This document shows, one piece after another, positions 41,191 through 48,135 of a DNA stretch of 64,000 nt (position 1 is its first letter; each line of letters opens with the position of its first letter). The notes under the pieces were generated by a model. That model was not told the DNA's origin. It did not search any database and worked only from the letters and a program-made list of their open reading frames with translations. The position numbers and the translations under genes were made by a program. The DNA is from Saccharibacillus endophyticus. GTDB taxonomy: Bacteria; Bacillota; Bacilli; Paenibacillales; Paenibacillaceae. Location of the stretch: contig NZ_JAAZWE010000002.1 in NCBI RefSeq assembly GCF_013185185.1, positions 434,001 to 498,000 on the forward strand, read 5' to 3'.

Positions 41191-42216
41191 TCAACGTTCA
41201 TTATTTTTATCTTTTTTCTTGCGAGTACGCGCACGGCCGGCACCCATGTTCATATCGAGAATGTCCGCGGTAAGCCCTCGCTGCTTCAACCACCAATAAG
41301 TCGCTCCGGTCGAAGCCAAAATAATGCTTAACGCAAAAACATAACCGAGCGGCCAGGACAACTCCGGCATATGTTCGAAATTCATGCCCCAGATCGCTCC
41401 GAGCGCCGTCGTCGGCGTAAGGAGCACCGTATATAACGTCAAAGCTTTCATGATATCGTTGGAGCGATAATTCGTAATGTTCTCGTCTACCCGAAGCAGC
41501 GAATCGATCTCTTCGTCGTATTCGCGCTGGAGCATGCTGATTCGCTTAAGGCGCATGTCGATGATATGTTTGCAGTCGGAATCTTGCATATCTCTGCGAA
41601 ACGTCTCGTCGGACGCGTAGCGCATTTCCTTGATCGGAATGATTTGCGCGTTCCAATACGTCAGATCGTTGCGCAAATCGATGGTGCGTTTGAGGATGCG
41701 TCGGTCATTTCGCCCCCGCATCTCTTCTTCCAGCGCATGCAGGCTTTGTTCGAAACGATCGGATTGCACGAAAAAAAATTCCAGAATTTCGCTTAACAGC
41801 ACCAGAAGCGCATCGATCGGCGAAACGCAGGCCAGCATTGCTTTTTGTAATCCGTCCTCATCGGTGCGCGTCAGCGTCAAGTTCGTACCGCCGATTAAAA
41901 TCAACACGTCTTTTTTTACGAAATAGTGCAGGAGCAGATTATTATCGCGTTTGTCAGGCGCCATGTCGAGCGACAACGTTCCGTTAAGCACGCTGTCATC
42001 CCCGGCATGCCGCGCGATCGCCAGCGTGCGGTTGCGCGTTCTCGACGTGCTTTCCTCCAGCCAATCGACGATATCTTGGTCGGCTGCATATCCGAGCCGT
42101 TCCTTGGCATCCGCGTGGTCGACGAAACGGTACCACCGCCAGTCCCGGTCTAAGCTATCTTCGTCTTCCGATCGTTTATTATGTATGCGAAGCCGATCAT
42201 CCTTATCCATATCCAT
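41191..42216 (-). CDS. corA: CorA-type divalent cation (Mg/Co) transporter
   Basis: A pentameric channel protein of 341 residues. A large acidic N-terminal cytosolic domain with a coiled helix (about 150-260) is followed by two C-terminal spans. The hallmark selectivity motif GMNFEHMPEL lies between the spans (TTALGAIWGMN). The last residues are strongly basic (RARTRKKKDK). GGAAGGA is the ribosome binding site. It lies between phoU and polA but is separated from phoU by a terminator, so it is a single-gene unit; import of Mg ions is the likely role. Confidence 0.92.
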   Translation of the reverse strand: MDMDKDDRLRIHNKRSEDEDSLDRDWRWYRFVDHADAKERLGYAADQDIVDWLEESTSRTRNRTLAIARHAGDDSVLNGTLSLDMAPDKRDNNLLLHYFVKKDVLILIGGTNLTLTRTDEDGLQKAMLACVSPIDALLVLLSEILEFFFVQSDRFEQSLHALEEEMRGRNDRRILKRTIDLRNDLTYWNAQIIPIKEMRYASDETFRRDMQDSDCKHIIDMRLKRISMLQREYDEEIDSLLRVDENITNYRSNDIMKALTLYTVLLTPTTALGAIWGMNFEHMPELSWPLGYVFALSIILASTGATYWWLKQRGLTADILDMNMGAGRARTRKKKDKNNER

Positions 42217-42341: not shown

Positions 42342-43001
42342 TTAAGAATTCAAATCAGGGCGGCGTCCGGTTACGAGGAATACGACGTTTTCGCCGATAT
42401 TCGTCGCATGGTCGGCTATACGCTCGATGTAACGGCCCACCATCTGAAGCAGCATCATTTGCGGCGCCGCTTCCGGCTTGTCGATCAGCAGCGCGTACAA
42501 TTCGCGCAGCATGGAGCCGTACAGCTCGTCGACTTCGTCGTCGTCTTTCGCCATTTTGTACGCGAGATCGGTATTTTCGTCCATATAGGAACGAATCGAC
42601 TCCGAAATCATGGTCGAAGCGATGCCGGCCATGTGCGGAATATCCACCAATGGTTTAACAACGGCTTCGCCATCCAGGCGTACGGTCACTTTCGCGATAT
42701 CGCGGGCCAGATCGCCCATTCGTTCCAGATCGCTCGAAATTTTGAAAGCGACGATAATGCGGCGCAAGTCTTTGGCAACCGGCTGCTGCGTAATGATCAA
42801 CTGCGAGCCGAGTTCCAAAATTTCTTCTTCCAGCACGTTAAGCTCGCCGTCGCGGCGGATCACCTCTTCGGCTTTTGCCAAGTCGGCTGTTTTCAGCGAT
42901 TCCACGGCTTCCTGCAACGCTTCGTCCATTCGGGTGCCCATCTTGATGAGCAGTTCGCGAAGCTGGTTCAATCCCGAGTCAAAGTCTGTTCTGCGGACCA
43001 T
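42342..43001 (-). CDS. phoU: Phosphate-specific transport accessory protein PhoU
   Basis: A 219-residue all-helical protein of two PhoU repeats (SDLERMGDLARDIAKVTVR and GRYIERIADHATNIGENVVF) that binds metal clusters. It couples PstSCAB activity to the PhoR kinase and keeps the Pho regulon off at high phosphate (known). It follows pstB by 40 bases on the same strand, with GGAGG before its ATG. The operon lacks pstSCA here. Confidence 0.95.
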   Translation of the reverse strand: MVRRTDFDSGLNQLRELLIKMGTRMDEALQEAVESLKTADLAKAEEVIRRDGELNVLEEEILELGSQLIITQQPVAKDLRRIIVAFKISSDLERMGDLARDIAKVTVRLDGEAVVKPLVDIPHMAGIASTMISESIRSYMDENTDLAYKMAKDDDEVDELYGSMLRELYALLIDKPEAAPQMMLLQMVGRYIERIADHATNIGENVVFLVTGRRPDLNS

Positions 43002-43041: not shown

Positions 43042-43797
43042 TTAACCAAACCGGCCGGAAATGTAATCTTCCGTGCGCGAATCTTCCGGCGTGGAGAATA
43101 AGGTCTTGGTTTCCGCCGCTTCAACGACTACGCCGTTCAGGAAAAAGACAGTTTTATCCGAAACCCGTGCTGCTTGATGCATGTTGTGCGTCACCATGAC
43201 GATGGTATATTTATGCTTGATCTCGCGAATCAGTTCTTCGATCTTCGCCGTCGAAATCGGGTCGAGGGCCGAAGTGGATTCGTCCATCAGCAATACGTCG
43301 GGTTTTACCGCAAGCGCGCGCGCGATGCACAGACGCTGCTGCTGGCCGCCGGACAATCCGAACGCCGAACGCTTCAAGAAATCTTTAACCTCGTCCCAGA
43401 GGGCCGATTGCTTCAAGCTCTCTTCGACGATCTCGTCCAATTCGGCTTTCTTGCTGATGCCTTTCAGGCGCGGGCCGTAGGCTACGTTCTCATAGATCGA
43501 TTTCGGGAAAGGATTCGGCTGCTGGAAGACCATTCCGACCCGCTTGCGCAAATCTTCGACTTCCATGTTTTTATCATAAATATCAGCGCCGCCAAGCGAC
43601 ACGAGTCCTTCGATTCGCGTCCCGGCGATTTGGTCGTTCATTCGGTTAAGCGTTCGGAGCAGCGTCGACTTGCCGCAGCCCGAAGGACCGATAAAAGCGG
43701 TCGCCGCTTTTTCGGGAATATCAAGATTGACGCTCTTCAGCGCATGAAACTGGTCGTAATACAGATCCAGGTTTTCGGTACGAATAATCGGTTCCAT
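43042..43797 (-). CDS. pstB: Phosphate ABC transporter ATP-binding protein PstB
   Basis: A 251-residue ATPase of the high-affinity phosphate importer: Walker [37 protein letters not shown], Walker [23 protein letters not shown]- and [14 protein letters not shown]-like segments are PstB-specific. GAAGGAGA precedes the ATG. PHO-box repeats with a correctly spaced -10 box lie just upstream. Unusually, no pstS, pstC or pstA precedes it; they must be elsewhere or lost. Confidence 0.95.
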
Positions 43798-43831: not shown

Positions 43832-43885
43832 AGTGTATCGTCGGTTTGTTAAGGACGTTAAGAAGAATTGTAAACGCAGGGTAAA
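43832..43885 (-). promoter_or_regulatory. PHO-box array and -10 box of pstB-phoU
   Basis: On the minus strand TTTACC, TTTACA, a weaker TCTTAA and TTAACA begin at 11-base intervals (plus-strand starts 43847, 43858, 43869, 43880). TTAACA is followed after 9 bases by TACACT (43832-43837). TT(A/T)ACA-like hexamers every 11 bp are the PhoP binding pattern of Bacillus. Confidence 0.82.
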
Positions 43886-43893
43886 ATCTGGTC

Positions 43894-45312
43894 TTATCGC
43901 TCGTTTAACGATTGTTCCAATGCGGAGCGAACCGCCTCGACTTCGCGAAGCGCCCCTTCCGTCAATCCGAAGGTGACACGCCCGCCTTTTTCAGAGCCGC
44001 GAGCCGACGCGGACACTTCTTGAAACTCTCCGTCCGCGGCGCCCATTCGGTCCGATGCGCTGCGGATTCGAGTCTCGGCTGCTTCCATGCCGGCTGCTGC
44101 GCCTTGACTCAATGTGTTCATCCGTTCCAACAGGCTGCCGATTTCATCGGAAAGCAAACGCGTGGATTCGGCCAAAGCCCTCACTTCGCCTGCAACAACC
44201 GCAAAGCCCCGTCCCGCTTCGCCCGCCCGCGCAGCCTCGATCGAAGCGTTCAGGGCGAGCAGCGAGCTTGTGCCCGCAATCCCGCGAATCGAGCCGGTTG
44301 CTTGGGCGATTTCCTTGGCGCAGCTCAGCATGTCGCCGATCGACTCGCGTTGATCCGCGATAGCCGAAGCCGCATCGGAAAAAGCCGAACCTGCATCGGC
44401 AAGCGCCTTACGACCGTCTTCCGTCCGGCGGTTCATCCGCTCTGCCTCGCGCATCACATTGCCGGCAGCATCATGAATCTCTGTTAACGAACCCGATACC
44501 TGTCCCAGCATGCGCCGGCTTCCCGCGATCTGATTCTGACGTTCCTTCGCGGAACGCTCTTGCAGGTCGCGCGACAAACGAATAAGGTCCCGAACGGTCA
44601 ATACGCCTTCATAACGCCCTTCGCGCGTGAGGATGACGCAATCCGCGAACGATTCGTCGCCTCTTGCCAGTGCCGTATCGATCAGGTCCGCCGGACAGGT
44701 ATCCGCTTCCGAGGTCAACGGAGGCAAGCCGGCCGCTTCCGCTACCGGGCGATCATAGAATAACTCCGGCGCAAAACGCCCGGTCAACTTGCGGTAAAAA
44801 GCGTCCCTCATCAACAGCATCATCGGTTGGCCGCTTGACGAGCAGACCACCACGCAAGGTGCTTCGGCCTCGCTTTTAAACACCTGCAAAGCTTCAAAAC
44901 AAGTAAGTTCCGGCCCAATGACCGGAGCTATGCGCGCATAATCGGATAACGATAGCGGTTCTTCATTCGCTCCCGGCTCATCCCCTAAAGCAAGCTCATT
45001 TTTAAACGATATATCCTCTTCTGCAGATACCGTTGGCTTGCTTAAAGCCTCTTTTGTGAATTCCTTCACGGAAGCCTCCGACTCAAGCTCCCGTTCGGCA
45101 TGCCTTGCAAGTCTTGCACGATGCTCCATCGGCCCTTTGCCGCGGAGAAGCGAAGCGAGAGCGGGAGTTTGTGCCGTTTCCGCTCGAAGTTCATCCGTTG
45201 CGGCAGACGCCCCTGTCCGCTCGCGTTGTTCGGCTTGCCCATTGGGCAGAAGTTTTTCTAACCCAGACTTTTGAACCACTTCTTCTCTTTCAAGCGTTCC
45301 CGCTCCAGGCAT
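43894..45312 (-). CDS. Soluble chemoreceptor-like protein with CBS-like sensor region and MCP signalling domain
   Basis: A 472-residue protein with no membrane span. Residues about 1-115 are a charged, low-complexity lead. About 125-245 is a tandem CBS-like region ([43 protein letters not shown]). Residues 260-460 form a methyl-accepting signalling helix bundle with the tip [20 protein letters not shown]. Such proteins couple a cytosolic ligand (often an adenine nucleotide for CBS) to CheA. It lies between phoP and pstB and has its own PHO-box-like array, suggesting phosphate-starvation control. Target pathway and ligand are unknown; a role outside chemotaxis is possible. Confidence 0.85.
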
Positions 45313-45342
45313 AAATGCTTCGCCCCCGTTGTGTTTTTTTCA

Positions 45343-45396
45343 ATTATAGCGCGGACTCGTTACTTTGGTGTCAACGCTCGGTTAACACTAGGTAAA
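45343..45396 (-). promoter_or_regulatory. PHO-box array and -10 box of the CBS-MCP gene
   Basis: On the minus strand TTTACC, TTAACC and TTGACA start at strict 11-base intervals (plus-strand starts 45369, 45380, 45391). A perfect TATAAT (45343-45348) lies downstream; its distance from TTGACA (20 bases) is longer than in a standard promoter, as expected if PhoP activation is needed. Confidence 0.75.
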
Positions 45397-45403
45397 AAGA
45401 CGC

Positions 45404-45447
45404 AAAAAAAAGACTCCGACCTTCCCTTAAAGGGAGGGTCTGGAGTC
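45404..45447 (-). terminator. Terminator of phoP
   Basis: AGACTCC and CCTTCCCT pair with AGGGAGGG and GGAGT on the opposite side, with an A7 run at 45404-45410 giving the U tract. It overlaps the phoP stop codon and separates phoP from the CBS-MCP gene. Confidence 0.82.
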
Positions 45448-46161
45448 CGCTTTGGCTTGAGCCACCACCAACTTATAACCTACGCCTCGAATCGAGTCGA
45501 TATGCACGGAACCCGGATCAAGCTCCAGCTTTTTACGCAAGGAGCTGACGTGAACGTCCACGGTGCGTTGGCCGCCGATGTAATCGAAGCCCCAAACCGC
45601 GTTCATCAAATCATCGCGTGTCATGACGACGCCAGGCTTACGCGCCAGATACAACAAGACTTCGAATTCTTTCGGTCTCAAATTAATCGCCTGCTGACCG
45701 AGCATGACTTCGTATTTATCCGGGTAAATCGTCAGTGCACCCAAGCTGATTTTGGATTCGGAACTTGCCGGAGCCGTATATTCCGATTCCTCGCCCGACG
45801 TACGCCGGATCACCGCACCCACGCGCGCCAGCATTTCCGATACGCCAAACGGCTTGGTAATATAATCGTCCGCGCCCAGCTTCAATCCGAGCACGATGTC
45901 TTCTTCAGCGTTTTTGGCGGTTAGAATAACAATCGGCGTCTTGACGCCGGAAACGCGCAGCTTCTCCAAAATTTCAATGCCGTTCATGCCCGGCAGCATC
46001 AGGTCCAGCAGGATCAAATCGAAAGATTCCCTGCGAGCCCGCTCATATCCGCCTGTCCCATGCTCCTCGAGTACAACCTCGTAGCCGTCCTGAGACAGAT
46101 TGTAAGAAATCAACCGGGACAGCGTCGGCTCGTCTTCGATCACGAGCAGTTTCCTAGCCAT
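45427..46161 (-). CDS. phoP: Phosphate-response regulator PhoP (OmpR family)
   Basis: A 244-residue response regulator. The receiver has Asp10, phospho-acceptor Asp53 (LILLDLMLPG), Thr in VILTAKN and Lys in TKPFG. The OmpR winged helix (about 150-235: LRPKEFEVLLYLARKPG, GGQRTVDVHVSSLRKKL) follows. It is identified as PhoP by sequence style and by its neighbours phoR, pstB, phoU and polA. In B. subtilis phoP precedes phoR; here phoR lies upstream and the gap of about 170 bp contains a PHO-box promoter. Confidence 0.9.
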   Translation of the reverse strand: MARKLLVIEDEPTLSRLISYNLSQDGYEVVLEEHGTGGYERARRESFDLILLDLMLPGMNGIEILEKLRVSGVKTPIVILTAKNAEEDIVLGLKLGADDYITKPFGVSEMLARVGAVIRRTSGEESEYTAPASSESKISLGALTIYPDKYEVMLGQQAINLRPKEFEVLLYLARKPGVVMTRDDLMNAVWGFDYIGGQRTVDVHVSSLRKKLELDPGSVHIDSIRGVGYKLVVAQAKADSRPSL

Positions 46162-46294
46162 TGGCTCGATCCCCCATTTCGTTTGCCTTCAACATTCAAG
46201 CAAGAAGCCGCAAGTCACGTTTACCCTTATCTGTTTAACGCTCTTCGGGCGAAAAATGACAGGCTTTTGCCTATGTCTATTTTTGACCTTCATC

Positions 46295-46326
46295 AGCATA
46301 TCACGGCATTGTTAACTCTGTGTAAA
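46295..46326 (-). promoter_or_regulatory. PHO box and -10 of phoP
   Basis: On the minus strand TTTACA and TTAACA start 11 bases apart (plus-strand starts 46310 and 46321), and 9 bases later comes TATGCT (46295-46300). The geometry is identical to the pstB promoter. It lies just after the phoR stop, so phoP can be made independently of phoR. Confidence 0.75.
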
Positions 46327-46329
46327 AAA

Positions 46330-48135
46330 TTACGGATTTTCCTGAAGCACGGGAAGTTCGACAATAAACGTGCTTCCGATCCCGAATTCGCTTTCGACCG
46401 AAATGGTTCCGCGGTGCAGTTCCACCAAGTGTTTCACGATCGATAGACCCAGACCGGTTCCGCCCGAAATACGCGAGCGAGCTTTATCCACCCGATAGAA
46501 GCGCTCGAAGATTCGCGGCAGGTCTTTTTTCGGAATCCCGATGCCGTTATCCGAAATGCTAAAGCGCACACGGTCTTCTTCATACTCTTCATGCAGGAAC
46601 TCCTCGACTTTAATCGTAACGCGGCCGCCTTCCGGCGTATAGCTGATTCCGTTTCCGACAAGGTTAATGAAGATTTGCCGCATCCGATCCTCGTCCGCCT
46701 CGACAAACAACTCCTCGGGAACTTGGAGACGAATCTCGATCCGTTTGTGCTCCGCCGATCCTTCCAATACCTTGCTTACCGATTGGAACAACGTCAACAC
46801 GTGCACGGGCGCGTAATCAAGCTGTATGCGTCTCGACTCGATCTTCGACAGGTCCAAAATATCGCCGATCAGCCGATTCAACCGATCTCCTTCGTCATAA
46901 ATGATTTTAAGGAACGAACGCGCGGTATCTTCGTCTTTTACCCCGCCGGAAAGCAGCGTCTCCGCGAACCCCTGCACGGCCGCCACGGGCGTCTTAAGTT
47001 CGTGCGACACATTGGCGACGAATTCGCTGCGCATCCGCTCCAGACGGCGAATATCCGACACGTCCTGGAAAAGGAACAGCATGCCGTGATACGAATCGTC
47101 GTGCAGCACCGTCATCGGTACCCCGTCGAGCGAAATCAACCGTTCCTCAGGCACGAACAGCGTCAGCTCGTCGTGCATGCGGTTTTTGTGGTGCAGCCCG
47201 TCTTCAATAAAGCGCGTCAGCTCGTAGAACCTTTTTAACTCCGTATACGGCCTCCCTACTACGCGATCCGCCCGAATGCCGAGCATCCGCTCGGCCTGAC
47301 GGTTGACCAGACCGATTCGCTTCTCTTCGTCGATCATCAGAATCCCGCCGGTCATATTGTCCAGCACGTTCTGAAGCAGACTCTCGTTATCGCGAATGGT
47401 GTGCATCTGCGCTTGAAGGCTGTCAGCCATGTTGTCGATCGAAGCGCCGAGCTGTCCGATCTCGTCGCGGCGCATCGGACCGACCCTCGCATCGTAGTCC
47501 AGCTTGGAAATCCGGTTCGCCGTATCCATGATATGTTCGATCGGCTTGGTCAGCCCTCCGGCCAAACGATAACTGAGCGCCGCCGAGAGCAGGAACAACG
47601 CGGCCAAGGCACTGCCCATGATGAGCCAACCCCGCTGCAATCCTTCTTCGACGATCTTCAAACTCATGGACAACCGGATATACCCGTCGAAGCCTCCCGA
47701 CGAGACGATCGGCGCGGCGACGTAAAGCATATCCCGCCCAAGCGTATCGCTATACCGCACGGCATGTCCGGGCGCGTCGGCGCGCGAGGTTCGAATCTCT
47801 TCGCGATCCAGGTGATTGTCCATCGAAGCCGGATCGCTTTGCGAGTCGCCGATTACGCGGCCGTCTTTGGCGATGAACGTCACCCGGGAATCGGTCAAGG
47901 AAGCAAGACGACGCGCGTTCTCGGCGAAGGTCTGCGGGATCGACTCGCCCTCGTTGGGGGAAGACGGGAGAACCAATAAATCTTCGAGCAAAGCAATCTC
48001 GCGCCCCATATACTCTTCCAGCGAACGAATATGCGAGTCCCGGAATACTTTGGCCATCGTAAGTCCCGCAGCCAGCACGGAGATGCCGACGAGAAGCAGT
48101 AAAATCAAGGTAAGACGGGAACGAAAGGGTTTCAT
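46330..48135 (-). CDS. phoR: Phosphate sensor histidine kinase PhoR
   Basis: A 601-residue membrane kinase. Span 1 (about 8-28), extracytoplasmic sensor of about 135 residues, span 2 (about 167-187), HAMP (about 188-242), PAS (about 250-345), HisKA with phospho-acceptor His378 (VSHELKTPVAAV), and HATPase_c with N box (INLVGNGISYTPEGG) and G boxes (DNGIGIPKKDLP, GGTGLGLSIVKHLVE). Phosphorylates PhoP in phosphate starvation. The ATG at 48135 overlaps the stop of the upstream transporter gene (ATGA), so the two are co-translated. Confidence 0.92.
   Translation of the reverse strand: MKPFRSRLTLILLLLVGISVLAAGLTMAKVFRDSHIRSLEEYMGREIALLEDLLVLPSSPNEGESIPQTFAENARRLASLTDSRVTFIAKDGRVIGDSQSDPASMDNHLDREEIRTSRADAPGHAVRYSDTLGRDMLYVAAPIVSSGGFDGYIRLSMSLKIVEEGLQRGWLIMGSALAALFLLSAALSYRLAGGLTKPIEHIMDTANRISKLDYDARVGPMRRDEIGQLGASIDNMADSLQAQMHTIRDNESLLQNVLDNMTGGILMIDEEKRIGLVNRQAERMLGIRADRVVGRPYTELKRFYELTRFIEDGLHHKNRMHDELTLFVPEERLISLDGVPMTVLHDDSYHGMLFLFQDVSDIRRLERMRSEFVANVSHELKTPVAAVQGFAETLLSGGVKDEDTARSFLKIIYDEGDRLNRLIGDILDLSKIESRRIQLDYAPVHVLTLFQSVSKVLEGSAEHKRIEIRLQVPEELFVEADEDRMRQIFINLVGNGISYTPEGGRVTIKVEEFLHEEYEEDRVRFSISDNGIGIPKKDLPRIFERFYRVDKARSRISGGTGLGLSIVKHLVELHRGTISVESEFGIGSTFIVELPVLQENP

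Follow-up and report, generated by a model that had tools for sequence, protein, structure and literature searches.

A cytosolic CBS chemoreceptor-like protein with a predicted PhoP-controlled promoter in the phosphate locus of Saccharibacillus endophyticus and its relatives

Introduction

A 64-kb stretch of the genome of Saccharibacillus endophyticus (contig NZ_JAAZWE010000002.1, positions 434,001 to 498,000; hereafter the window, to which coordinates refer unless another locus is named) raises the question of what a gene for a soluble chemoreceptor-like protein does between phoP and pstB. The protein, here termed CBS-MCP, joins a pair of CBS domains to the signalling hairpin of a methyl-accepting chemotaxis protein (MCP). 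Its gene lies on the minus strand in the order SBF transporter, pnpS (phoR), phoP, CBS-MCP, pstB, phoU, CorA-like gene, polA and mutM, the last two being named by eye.

43894..45312, minus strand: CBS-MCP gene, 472 amino acids (aa), soluble chemoreceptor-like (PF00015 E=5e-25; homologues with conserved synteny)

The answer that we favour, as probable though well short of secure, is that CBS-MCP is induced by PhoP and couples the internal phosphate or energy state to chemotaxis, while homologous CBS-GGDEF and EAL proteins couple it to cyclic di-GMP (c-di-GMP). The gene, its domains, promoter, conservation and linkage were computed, and from these we infer PhoP binding, a ligand, coupling to CheA and a direction of the response.

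PHO promoters in the window

The promoters of the locus, and a hairpin that precedes one of them, are as follows.

45343..45396, minus strand: PHO promoter of CBS-MCP, with boxes TTTACC, TTAACC, TTGACA and GTAACG at 11 bp, a 9-bp gap and TATAAT (top score in the window)
46295..46326, minus strand: phoP promoter, with two PHO boxes, a 9-bp gap and TATGCT (found in the PHO-box scans)
43832..43885, minus strand: pstB PHO promoter, with four boxes (one weak), a 9-bp gap and TACACT (second-best score in the window)
45404..45447, minus strand: hairpin and U8 tract at the 3' end of phoP, likely intrinsic terminator (fold -28 kcal/mol, z=-4.25)

Hexamers were scored on both strands of the 64 kb against what we take to be the PHO-box consensus of Bacillus subtilis, in scans for three boxes at 11-bp spacing and for four boxes followed by a 9-bp gap and a -10 box. 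The top three separate sites of the three-box scan lie, on the minus strand, at 45396 (CBS-MCP, 17.83), 46326 (phoP, 16.92) and 43874 (pstB, 12.83), compared with a maximum of 15.87 and a mean of 12.08 in 20 resampled 64-kb windows. The three-box score of pstB lies within this chance range, but its four-box score of 18.93 exceeds the resampled maximum of 15.8. When four boxes, gap and -10 box were scored together, the CBS-MCP promoter ranked first in the window (26.74) and the pstB promoter second (24.3); the third-ranked site (10.37) is the two-box site of phoP itself in a different register, and the best site outside the locus reached 9.89.

An earlier note on this DNA had placed box arrays before all three genes and had seen a 9-base gap to the -10 box shared by phoP and pstB. 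The arrays are indeed found at those places and the shared gap stands, but the array of CBS-MCP holds four boxes instead of the three that had been counted: a fourth box, GTAACG (45363-45358), is followed by exactly 9 bp and then by TATAAT (45348-45343), so that the 9-bp gap is common to all three promoters.

Conservation of the arrays was followed at 61 orthologous loci, 60 of them picked across genera among 120 CBS-MCP-bearing genomes and one from Saccharibacillus sacchari, with the 99% and 99.9% levels of shuffled sequence as thresholds and with related species being non-independent samples in the counts. Arrays above the 99% level precede CBS-MCP at 52 of 61 loci, pstB at 43 of 54 and phoP at 25 of 45, compared with 0/45, 2/36 and 1/39 for the control regions upstream of phoU, polA and pnpS. 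Raising the threshold to 99.9% leaves 34, 43 and 18 loci, and 0, 0 and 1 for the controls in the same order. Across relatives the mean score is best at a gap of 9 for all three promoters and at a period of 11 for those of CBS-MCP and pstB. No such array lies upstream of the other MCP genes of this genome (0 of the 24 with a usable upstream region, from 28 other MCP loci out of 51 PF00015 matches).

Folding detected the hairpin at the end of phoP, which a simple terminator scan had not picked up. Since this terminator-like structure stands just before the array, CBS-MCP is probably its own transcription unit. PHO boxes with an 11-bp period upstream of a -10 box, as looked for in a member of the Pho regulon, are present at its promoter. 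The earlier proposal that PhoP controls the soluble CBS-MCP is therefore well supported by promoter grammar, conservation in relatives and position, from which we strongly infer such control.

Linkage to phosphate genes in the family and beyond

The genes that surround CBS-MCP in the window were identified as follows; for the phoP product, no NCBIfam model reached its cut-off among the 25 models listed.

45427..46161, minus strand: phoP response regulator (Response_reg and Trans_reg_C; named from its position beside pnpS)
46330..48135, minus strand: pnpS/phoR histidine kinase (NF046044 PnpS, 514 bits, cut-off 400)
43042..43797, minus strand: pstB (TIGR00972, 403 bits, cut-off 343)
42342..43001, minus strand: phoU (TIGR02135, 198 bits, cut-off 130)

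A family-profile search at E<=1e-59 found CBS-MCP in 118 of 170 sampled genomes of the family, Paenibacillaceae (a recount of the listed rows), and in 2 of 126 genomes from other families within the order; the next-best gene stood well apart, at 4e-41. In a class sample, a related protein occurs in 2 of 272 other genomes, and in a phylum sample of 398 genomes searched at E<=1e-45 in 3 of 391 genomes outside the family, all three belonging to a single family (f110) from a different class.

Among the genes searched for, the nearest neighbour is a phosphate gene, mostly pstB or pstS, at 58 of the 61 loci, and CBS-MCP lies within 2 kb of phosphate genes at 59. The order phoP-MCP-pstB is seen at 37 loci, MCP-pstS at 11 (three with 1.0-1.3 kb between the genes), MCP-pstB at 6 and phoP-MCP-pstS at 2, while single loci have pstA-MCP-pstB, phoU-MCP-phoP-like or a pstS 1.7 kb downstream; the two remaining loci are unlinked to phosphate genes, and one of these adjoins an OmpR-type regulator. 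In the genus itself all 16 of 16 genomes have phoP-MCP-pstB, and S. sacchari DSM 19268, the nearest named genome found, has an identical gene order and a CBS-MCP protein of 86% identity. The gene is kept beside phosphate genes in many relatives, and the remark in the earlier note that no standard Pho operon carries such a gene fails for this family.

The phosphate link extends to the distant family f110, where all three matches show phoP-phoR-CBS-MCP and then pst genes. In two of these loci (L266 and L267), an EAL-CBS-GGDEF protein is encoded between CBS-MCP and pstS-pstC-pstA, and in the third (L268) CBS-MCP is directly followed by pstS-pstS-pstC-pstA-pstB.

The CBS-MCP genes of L157 (genome G313) and L156 (G246), both from another family of the order, are possible transfers. 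One of the pair is flanked by phoU and a phoP-like gene, and further out are open reading frames (ORFs) that by eye resemble arsenic-resistance genes; the other adjoins an OmpR-type regulator and a kinase-like ORF. In the window, a CorA-like gene (41191-42216) between phoU and polA occupies the slot that CBS-GGDEF and EAL hold in other genera; of all genes in the stretch, it shows the lowest conservation relative to S. sacchari (74%, compared with 86% for CBS-MCP and 97-100% for the others). The pstS of this genome (L190:3128-4216; contig C10, about 381.6 kb), its sole PF12849 match, is the first gene of a pstSCAB cluster that lies outside the window; its PHO-like array scores 14.7, weaker than that of CBS-MCP.

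A predicted cytosolic CBS sensor joined to a chemoreceptor hairpin

The two domains of CBS-MCP were delimited with an AlphaFold2 model built from 27 alignment rows (mean pLDDT 78.7).

44572..44940, minus strand: CBS pair, residues about 125-247, with GxxTxxD (G236, T239, D242) (family Pfam CBS matches; Foldseek)
43897..44595, minus strand: MCP signalling hairpin, residues 240-472, tip near residue 366 (AlphaFold2 helices 240-362 and 364-471; C-terminal arm 107 aa)

Taken alone, the protein of the window gave no CBS match in the first Pfam scan and reaches only E=0.016 to Pfam CBS, below the gathering cut-off. This single-sequence test was replaced by a test of 27 family members, of which all 27 match Pfam CBS (PF00571) at E<=1, the best at 6.9e-10, and Foldseek matches the CBS region of the model to the solved CBS pairs AcuB, CcpN, DarB and CBSX. 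The CBS-like region described in the earlier note is hence a genuine, though divergent, CBS region. In its second unit, G236 and T239 are invariant in the 27 rows and D242 is D in 24 of them; GxxTxxD is presumably a nucleotide-site motif of CBS units. With the CBS fold and this conserved motif as the grounds, an adenine nucleotide would be the most likely ligand. According to PDB titles, AMP, ADP or ATP is bound in AcuB and c-di-AMP in DarB.

Residues 1-120 are of low confidence in the model except for one helix, and are variable in relatives. The stretch before the CBS pair ranges from about 15 to 160 residues across the aligned rows, with uncertain start codons, and appears rich in alanine and glutamate in Saccharibacillus.

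The MCP part forms a two-helix hairpin in the model, with structural matches to Tsr, to the soluble Thermotoga receptors 3g67 and 3g6b and to a YfmS-CheW model. The maximal hydropathy over 19 residues is 1.04, whereas the 20 other MCPs of the same genome with the best scores, which serve as the comparison set throughout, reach 2.33-3.25; the protein thus has no membrane span, as had been claimed. Nor does it resemble a CtpL-type membrane receptor with a periplasmic ligand-binding domain, as it has no span and its N-terminal part consists of a low-confidence stretch and the CBS pair. A search for family genomes without CheA found none, a CheA-family match being present in 197 of 197. Together with the largely conserved hairpin tip, this makes coupling of CBS-MCP to the chemotaxis machinery plausible.

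Chemotaxis input or scaffold

Several findings weigh against a PhoP-induced input to chemotaxis. Firstly, CBS-MCP is absent from 52 of the 170 family genomes, its frame is stopped or split in 4 of 118 copies (G004, G300, G025 and G344), and its promoter falls below the 99% level at 9 of the 61 loci. Among 20 genomes chosen for lacking CBS-MCP, all seven of genus g13 have phoP adjoining pstB; for the other 13, the arrangement is pstC-pstA-pstB in seven and pstA-pstB-pstB in three, while in the last three the 1.5 kb upstream hold no gene of this kind. The absence from 52 genomes and the phoP-pstB junction in 7/7 g13 genomes indicate that CBS-MCP is dispensable.

Secondly, the signalling domain departs from that of other MCPs. 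The conserved tip reported in the earlier note holds for most residues, with N355, E359, G367, G369 and F370 invariant in 27 rows; a tip glutamate is lost in four rows of one clade. The tip threonine is replaced by serine in 27/27 family rows and kept in 19 of the 20 other MCPs. The residue that follows is G, S or T in the family, with N in 2 rows, and N in 15 of the 20; the protein of the window has S-S where T-N is usual, and position 362 is R or H in the family. In f110, two of the three CBS-MCPs keep the usual T-N tip. Loss of the N was considered as a family-specific trait and rejected, as 5 of the 20 other MCPs lack it as well, hence only the change from T to S is special. The C-terminal arm has 107 aa, compared with 151-159 in 17 of the 20 (133, 186 and 217 in the rest), and a strict methylation site in the signalling domain is found in 0 of 27 rows (one match lies in the N-terminal linker), compared with at least one in 20/20. 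In this genome the C-arm measures 83-91 in seven further soluble MCPs, four of which have a strict site and three none. The altered tip, the glutamate loss, the short arm and the lack of strict sites make membership of chemoreceptor arrays uncertain.

These departures bring to the fore an explanation that we consider unlikely, yet deserving of weight, namely that CBS-MCP is a scaffold of the Pho regulon instead of a chemotaxis input, with a hairpin that binds PstB, PhoU, PnpS or CBS-GGDEF and tunes uptake or PhoP signalling. A scaffold would fit the tight linkage to pst and phoP, the missing strict methylation site, an arm length unseen in the other MCPs examined and the clade that has lost the tip glutamate. 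However, most rows show strong conservation of the MCP tip, the seven g13 genomes retain phoP, pstB and phoU without CBS-MCP, and three other soluble MCPs of this genome do without strict methylation sites as well.

The CBS-GGDEF and EAL partners

A genome-wide search for three perfect PHO boxes led to three places, which are the CBS-MCP promoter, an EAL gene followed by CBS-GGDEF, and hpf. With up to one mismatch, the pattern gave 22 sites compared with 10 for a reversed control, hence single weak matches were not used. The EAL and CBS-GGDEF genes (L186:3460-5528; contig C10, about 342-344 kb) have a strong PHO promoter (score 23.5), and the EAL array is kept at 15.9 or above in 8 of 10 close orthologues of the genus, the other two scoring 14.8 and 10.3; an eleventh EAL gene, with no CBS-GGDEF beside it, scores 8.4.

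The CBS regions of CBS-GGDEF and CBS-MCP are homologous (hhalign probability 97.9, E=3.5e-13), although Pfam alone gave no CBS name to that of CBS-GGDEF. The fused EAL-CBS-GGDEF protein of f110 has kinship with the EAL protein as well as with CBS-GGDEF (37% and 36% identity). The EAL protein matches Pfam EAL over its whole length and also the EAL domain of f110. In 11/11 aligned rows CBS-GGDEF carries GGDD, not GGDEF, so that it may regulate rather than synthesise.

At E<=1e-45, CBS-GGDEF is found in 100 of 197 family genomes, which fall into two groups. The weaker-scoring group comprises 52 genomes, 50 of them with CBS-MCP as well. In 45 of these 50 the two genes share a contig, lying within 20 kb of each other in 40, within 45 kb in 43, and 363 and 492 kb apart in the remaining two; in five they are on different contigs. 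In the other group, group (i), to which this genome belongs, CBS-GGDEF is 0.5-4.1 Mb from CBS-MCP in 12 single-contig genomes.

In 20 clusters fetched because CBS-GGDEF lies near pst, CBS-GGDEF and then EAL follow the phosphate genes in all 20, and CBS-MCP is present in 18. They are followed by polA in 19, whereas the next 2.7 kb of L324 gave no polA; in L332-L335 an EAL domain also stands directly before CBS-GGDEF, resembling the f110 fusion. PHO arrays precede CBS-GGDEF in 15 of 20 cases, the MCP in 15 of 19 entries (one cluster has a second MCP), pstS in 19 of 28, EAL in 6 of 24 and pstB in 10 of 34, compared with 1/28 for phoU, 0/19 for polA and 0/28 each for pstC and pstA.

A wider reading, to which we give an even chance, is that one PhoP-switched family of cytosolic CBS sensors around pst feeds both chemotaxis and c-di-GMP, and that starving cells decide whether to swim or settle from the nucleotide or phosphate state inside them. 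Two findings speak against it. At 18 loci from the 38 group (i) genomes outside Saccharibacillus, an array over threshold precedes EAL in 5 of 10 cases and CBS-GGDEF in 3 of 18, or in 3 of the 8 in which CBS-GGDEF seems to come first; and two other Bacilli genomes with CBS-MCP relatives (L192 and L193) gave no match to the phoP, pnpS or pst queries.

That CBS-MCP signals mainly to CBS-GGDEF and EAL through mixed CBS oligomers, with only indirect control of motility by its MCP part, strikes us as improbable. The homologous CBS pairs, the shared locus, the parallel PHO promoters and the side-by-side genes in two of the three distant f110 clusters would suit such oligomers, but six Saccharibacillus genomes have CBS-MCP and no CBS-GGDEF match at E<=1e-45, and two clusters (L335 and L336) have CBS-GGDEF without CBS-MCP. 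Very improbable is the view that the PHO boxes act on phoP and pstB alone and that CBS-MCP is a passenger without a phosphate role: its absence from 52 of 170 family genomes and the two unlinked loci are in line with this, but the gene has its own array behind a terminator-like hairpin, that array is conserved at 52 of 61 loci, and the phosphate link recurs in f110.

Further PHO-like arrays were seen in this genome. One of 21.4 lies upstream of hpf, a ribosome hibernation factor gene (L188:5162-4528, minus strand; contig C18, about 94 kb) that is followed by a long ORF resembling secA by eye. A stand-alone 148-aa protein like the CBS region of CBS-MCP (30% identity; L191:3473-4072; contig C10, about 113.6 kb) has a weaker array of 13.5 at its gene, and a run of about five PHO-like boxes (L187:4351-4290, minus strand; contig C10, about 4.3 kb) has no clear downstream gene.

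A model for CBS-MCP action

In the favoured reading, of CBS-MCP as a PhoP-induced input to chemotaxis, phosphorylated PhoP would bind the four-box array at low phosphate and the cytosolic protein would be made from its own promoter. Its N-terminal CBS pair may then sense a ligand within the cell (most likely an adenine nucleotide) that reports the phosphate or energy state. The state of the CBS pair would pass through the coiled coil to the hairpin tip, CheW/CheA and finally the swimming bias. Having no recognisable methylation sites, CBS-MCP could act as an input that does not adapt and is gated by starvation. A homologous CBS pair with GGDEF and EAL, PHO-boxed or beside pst in many genomes, would let a similar signal act on c-di-GMP, and a starvation-induced fall of c-di-GMP would favour leaving surfaces.

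Relation to known systems

Phosphate chemoreceptors that are raised under phosphate limitation are described for Pseudomonas in excerpts of two papers, where CtpH binds Pi directly, whereas CtpL is stimulated via PstS, a periplasmic protein that binds phosphate (PMC4926252; PMC9864684). CBS-MCP resembles CtpL and CtpH in that a chemoreceptor is tied to phosphate uptake and, as predicted here, to induction at low phosphate, but differs in being cytosolic: it carries a CBS pair and lacks an extracytoplasmic domain. In Pseudomonas fluorescens, low phosphate switches on the c-di-GMP phosphodiesterase RapA, which lowers c-di-GMP so that adhesion is lost, according to an excerpt (PMC3032545); that excerpt mentions no CBS link, whereas the GGDEF and EAL described here come with a CBS module that shares homology with the one in CBS-MCP. 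In Paenibacillus sonchi, transcripts of pstS, pstB3 and phoU rise upon transfer to low phosphate, as measured by quantitative reverse-transcription PCR and given in part of the paper (PMC7793946), which implies that a Pho response exists in the family; the excerpts do not mention CBS-MCP. The MCP genes in Table 1 of that paper, as far as excerpted, come from a comparison of hydroxyapatite with soluble phosphate in which pstS fell, and were not counted as support (PMC7793946).

The hairpin itself is like those of the cytosolic receptors 3g67 and 3g6b of Thermotoga maritima, of YfmS of B. subtilis and of HemAT, but none of these, by the partial descriptions at hand, has a CBS pair or a position in a Pho locus. 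HemAT is a soluble chemoreceptor. AcuB, CcpN and DarB share the CBS sensor fold, whereas the output domain of CBS-MCP is an MCP hairpin. Among the matches listed from open-licence PMC literature, there is no description of a CBS-MCP in a Pho locus or of a link to CBS-GGDEF. Phosphate chemoreceptors and phosphate control of c-di-GMP were already known from Pseudomonas.

Significance

A Gram-positive family seems to tie both chemotaxis and c-di-GMP to a single internal sensor fold that is encoded within and near its phosphate locus. This offers a concrete, deletable set of genes for studying what governs the decision to move in starving bacteria of soil and roots, and whether nucleotide sensing by CBS domains serves behaviour. 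If the reading is true, the phosphate or energy state inside starving cells may determine how they alter their movement.

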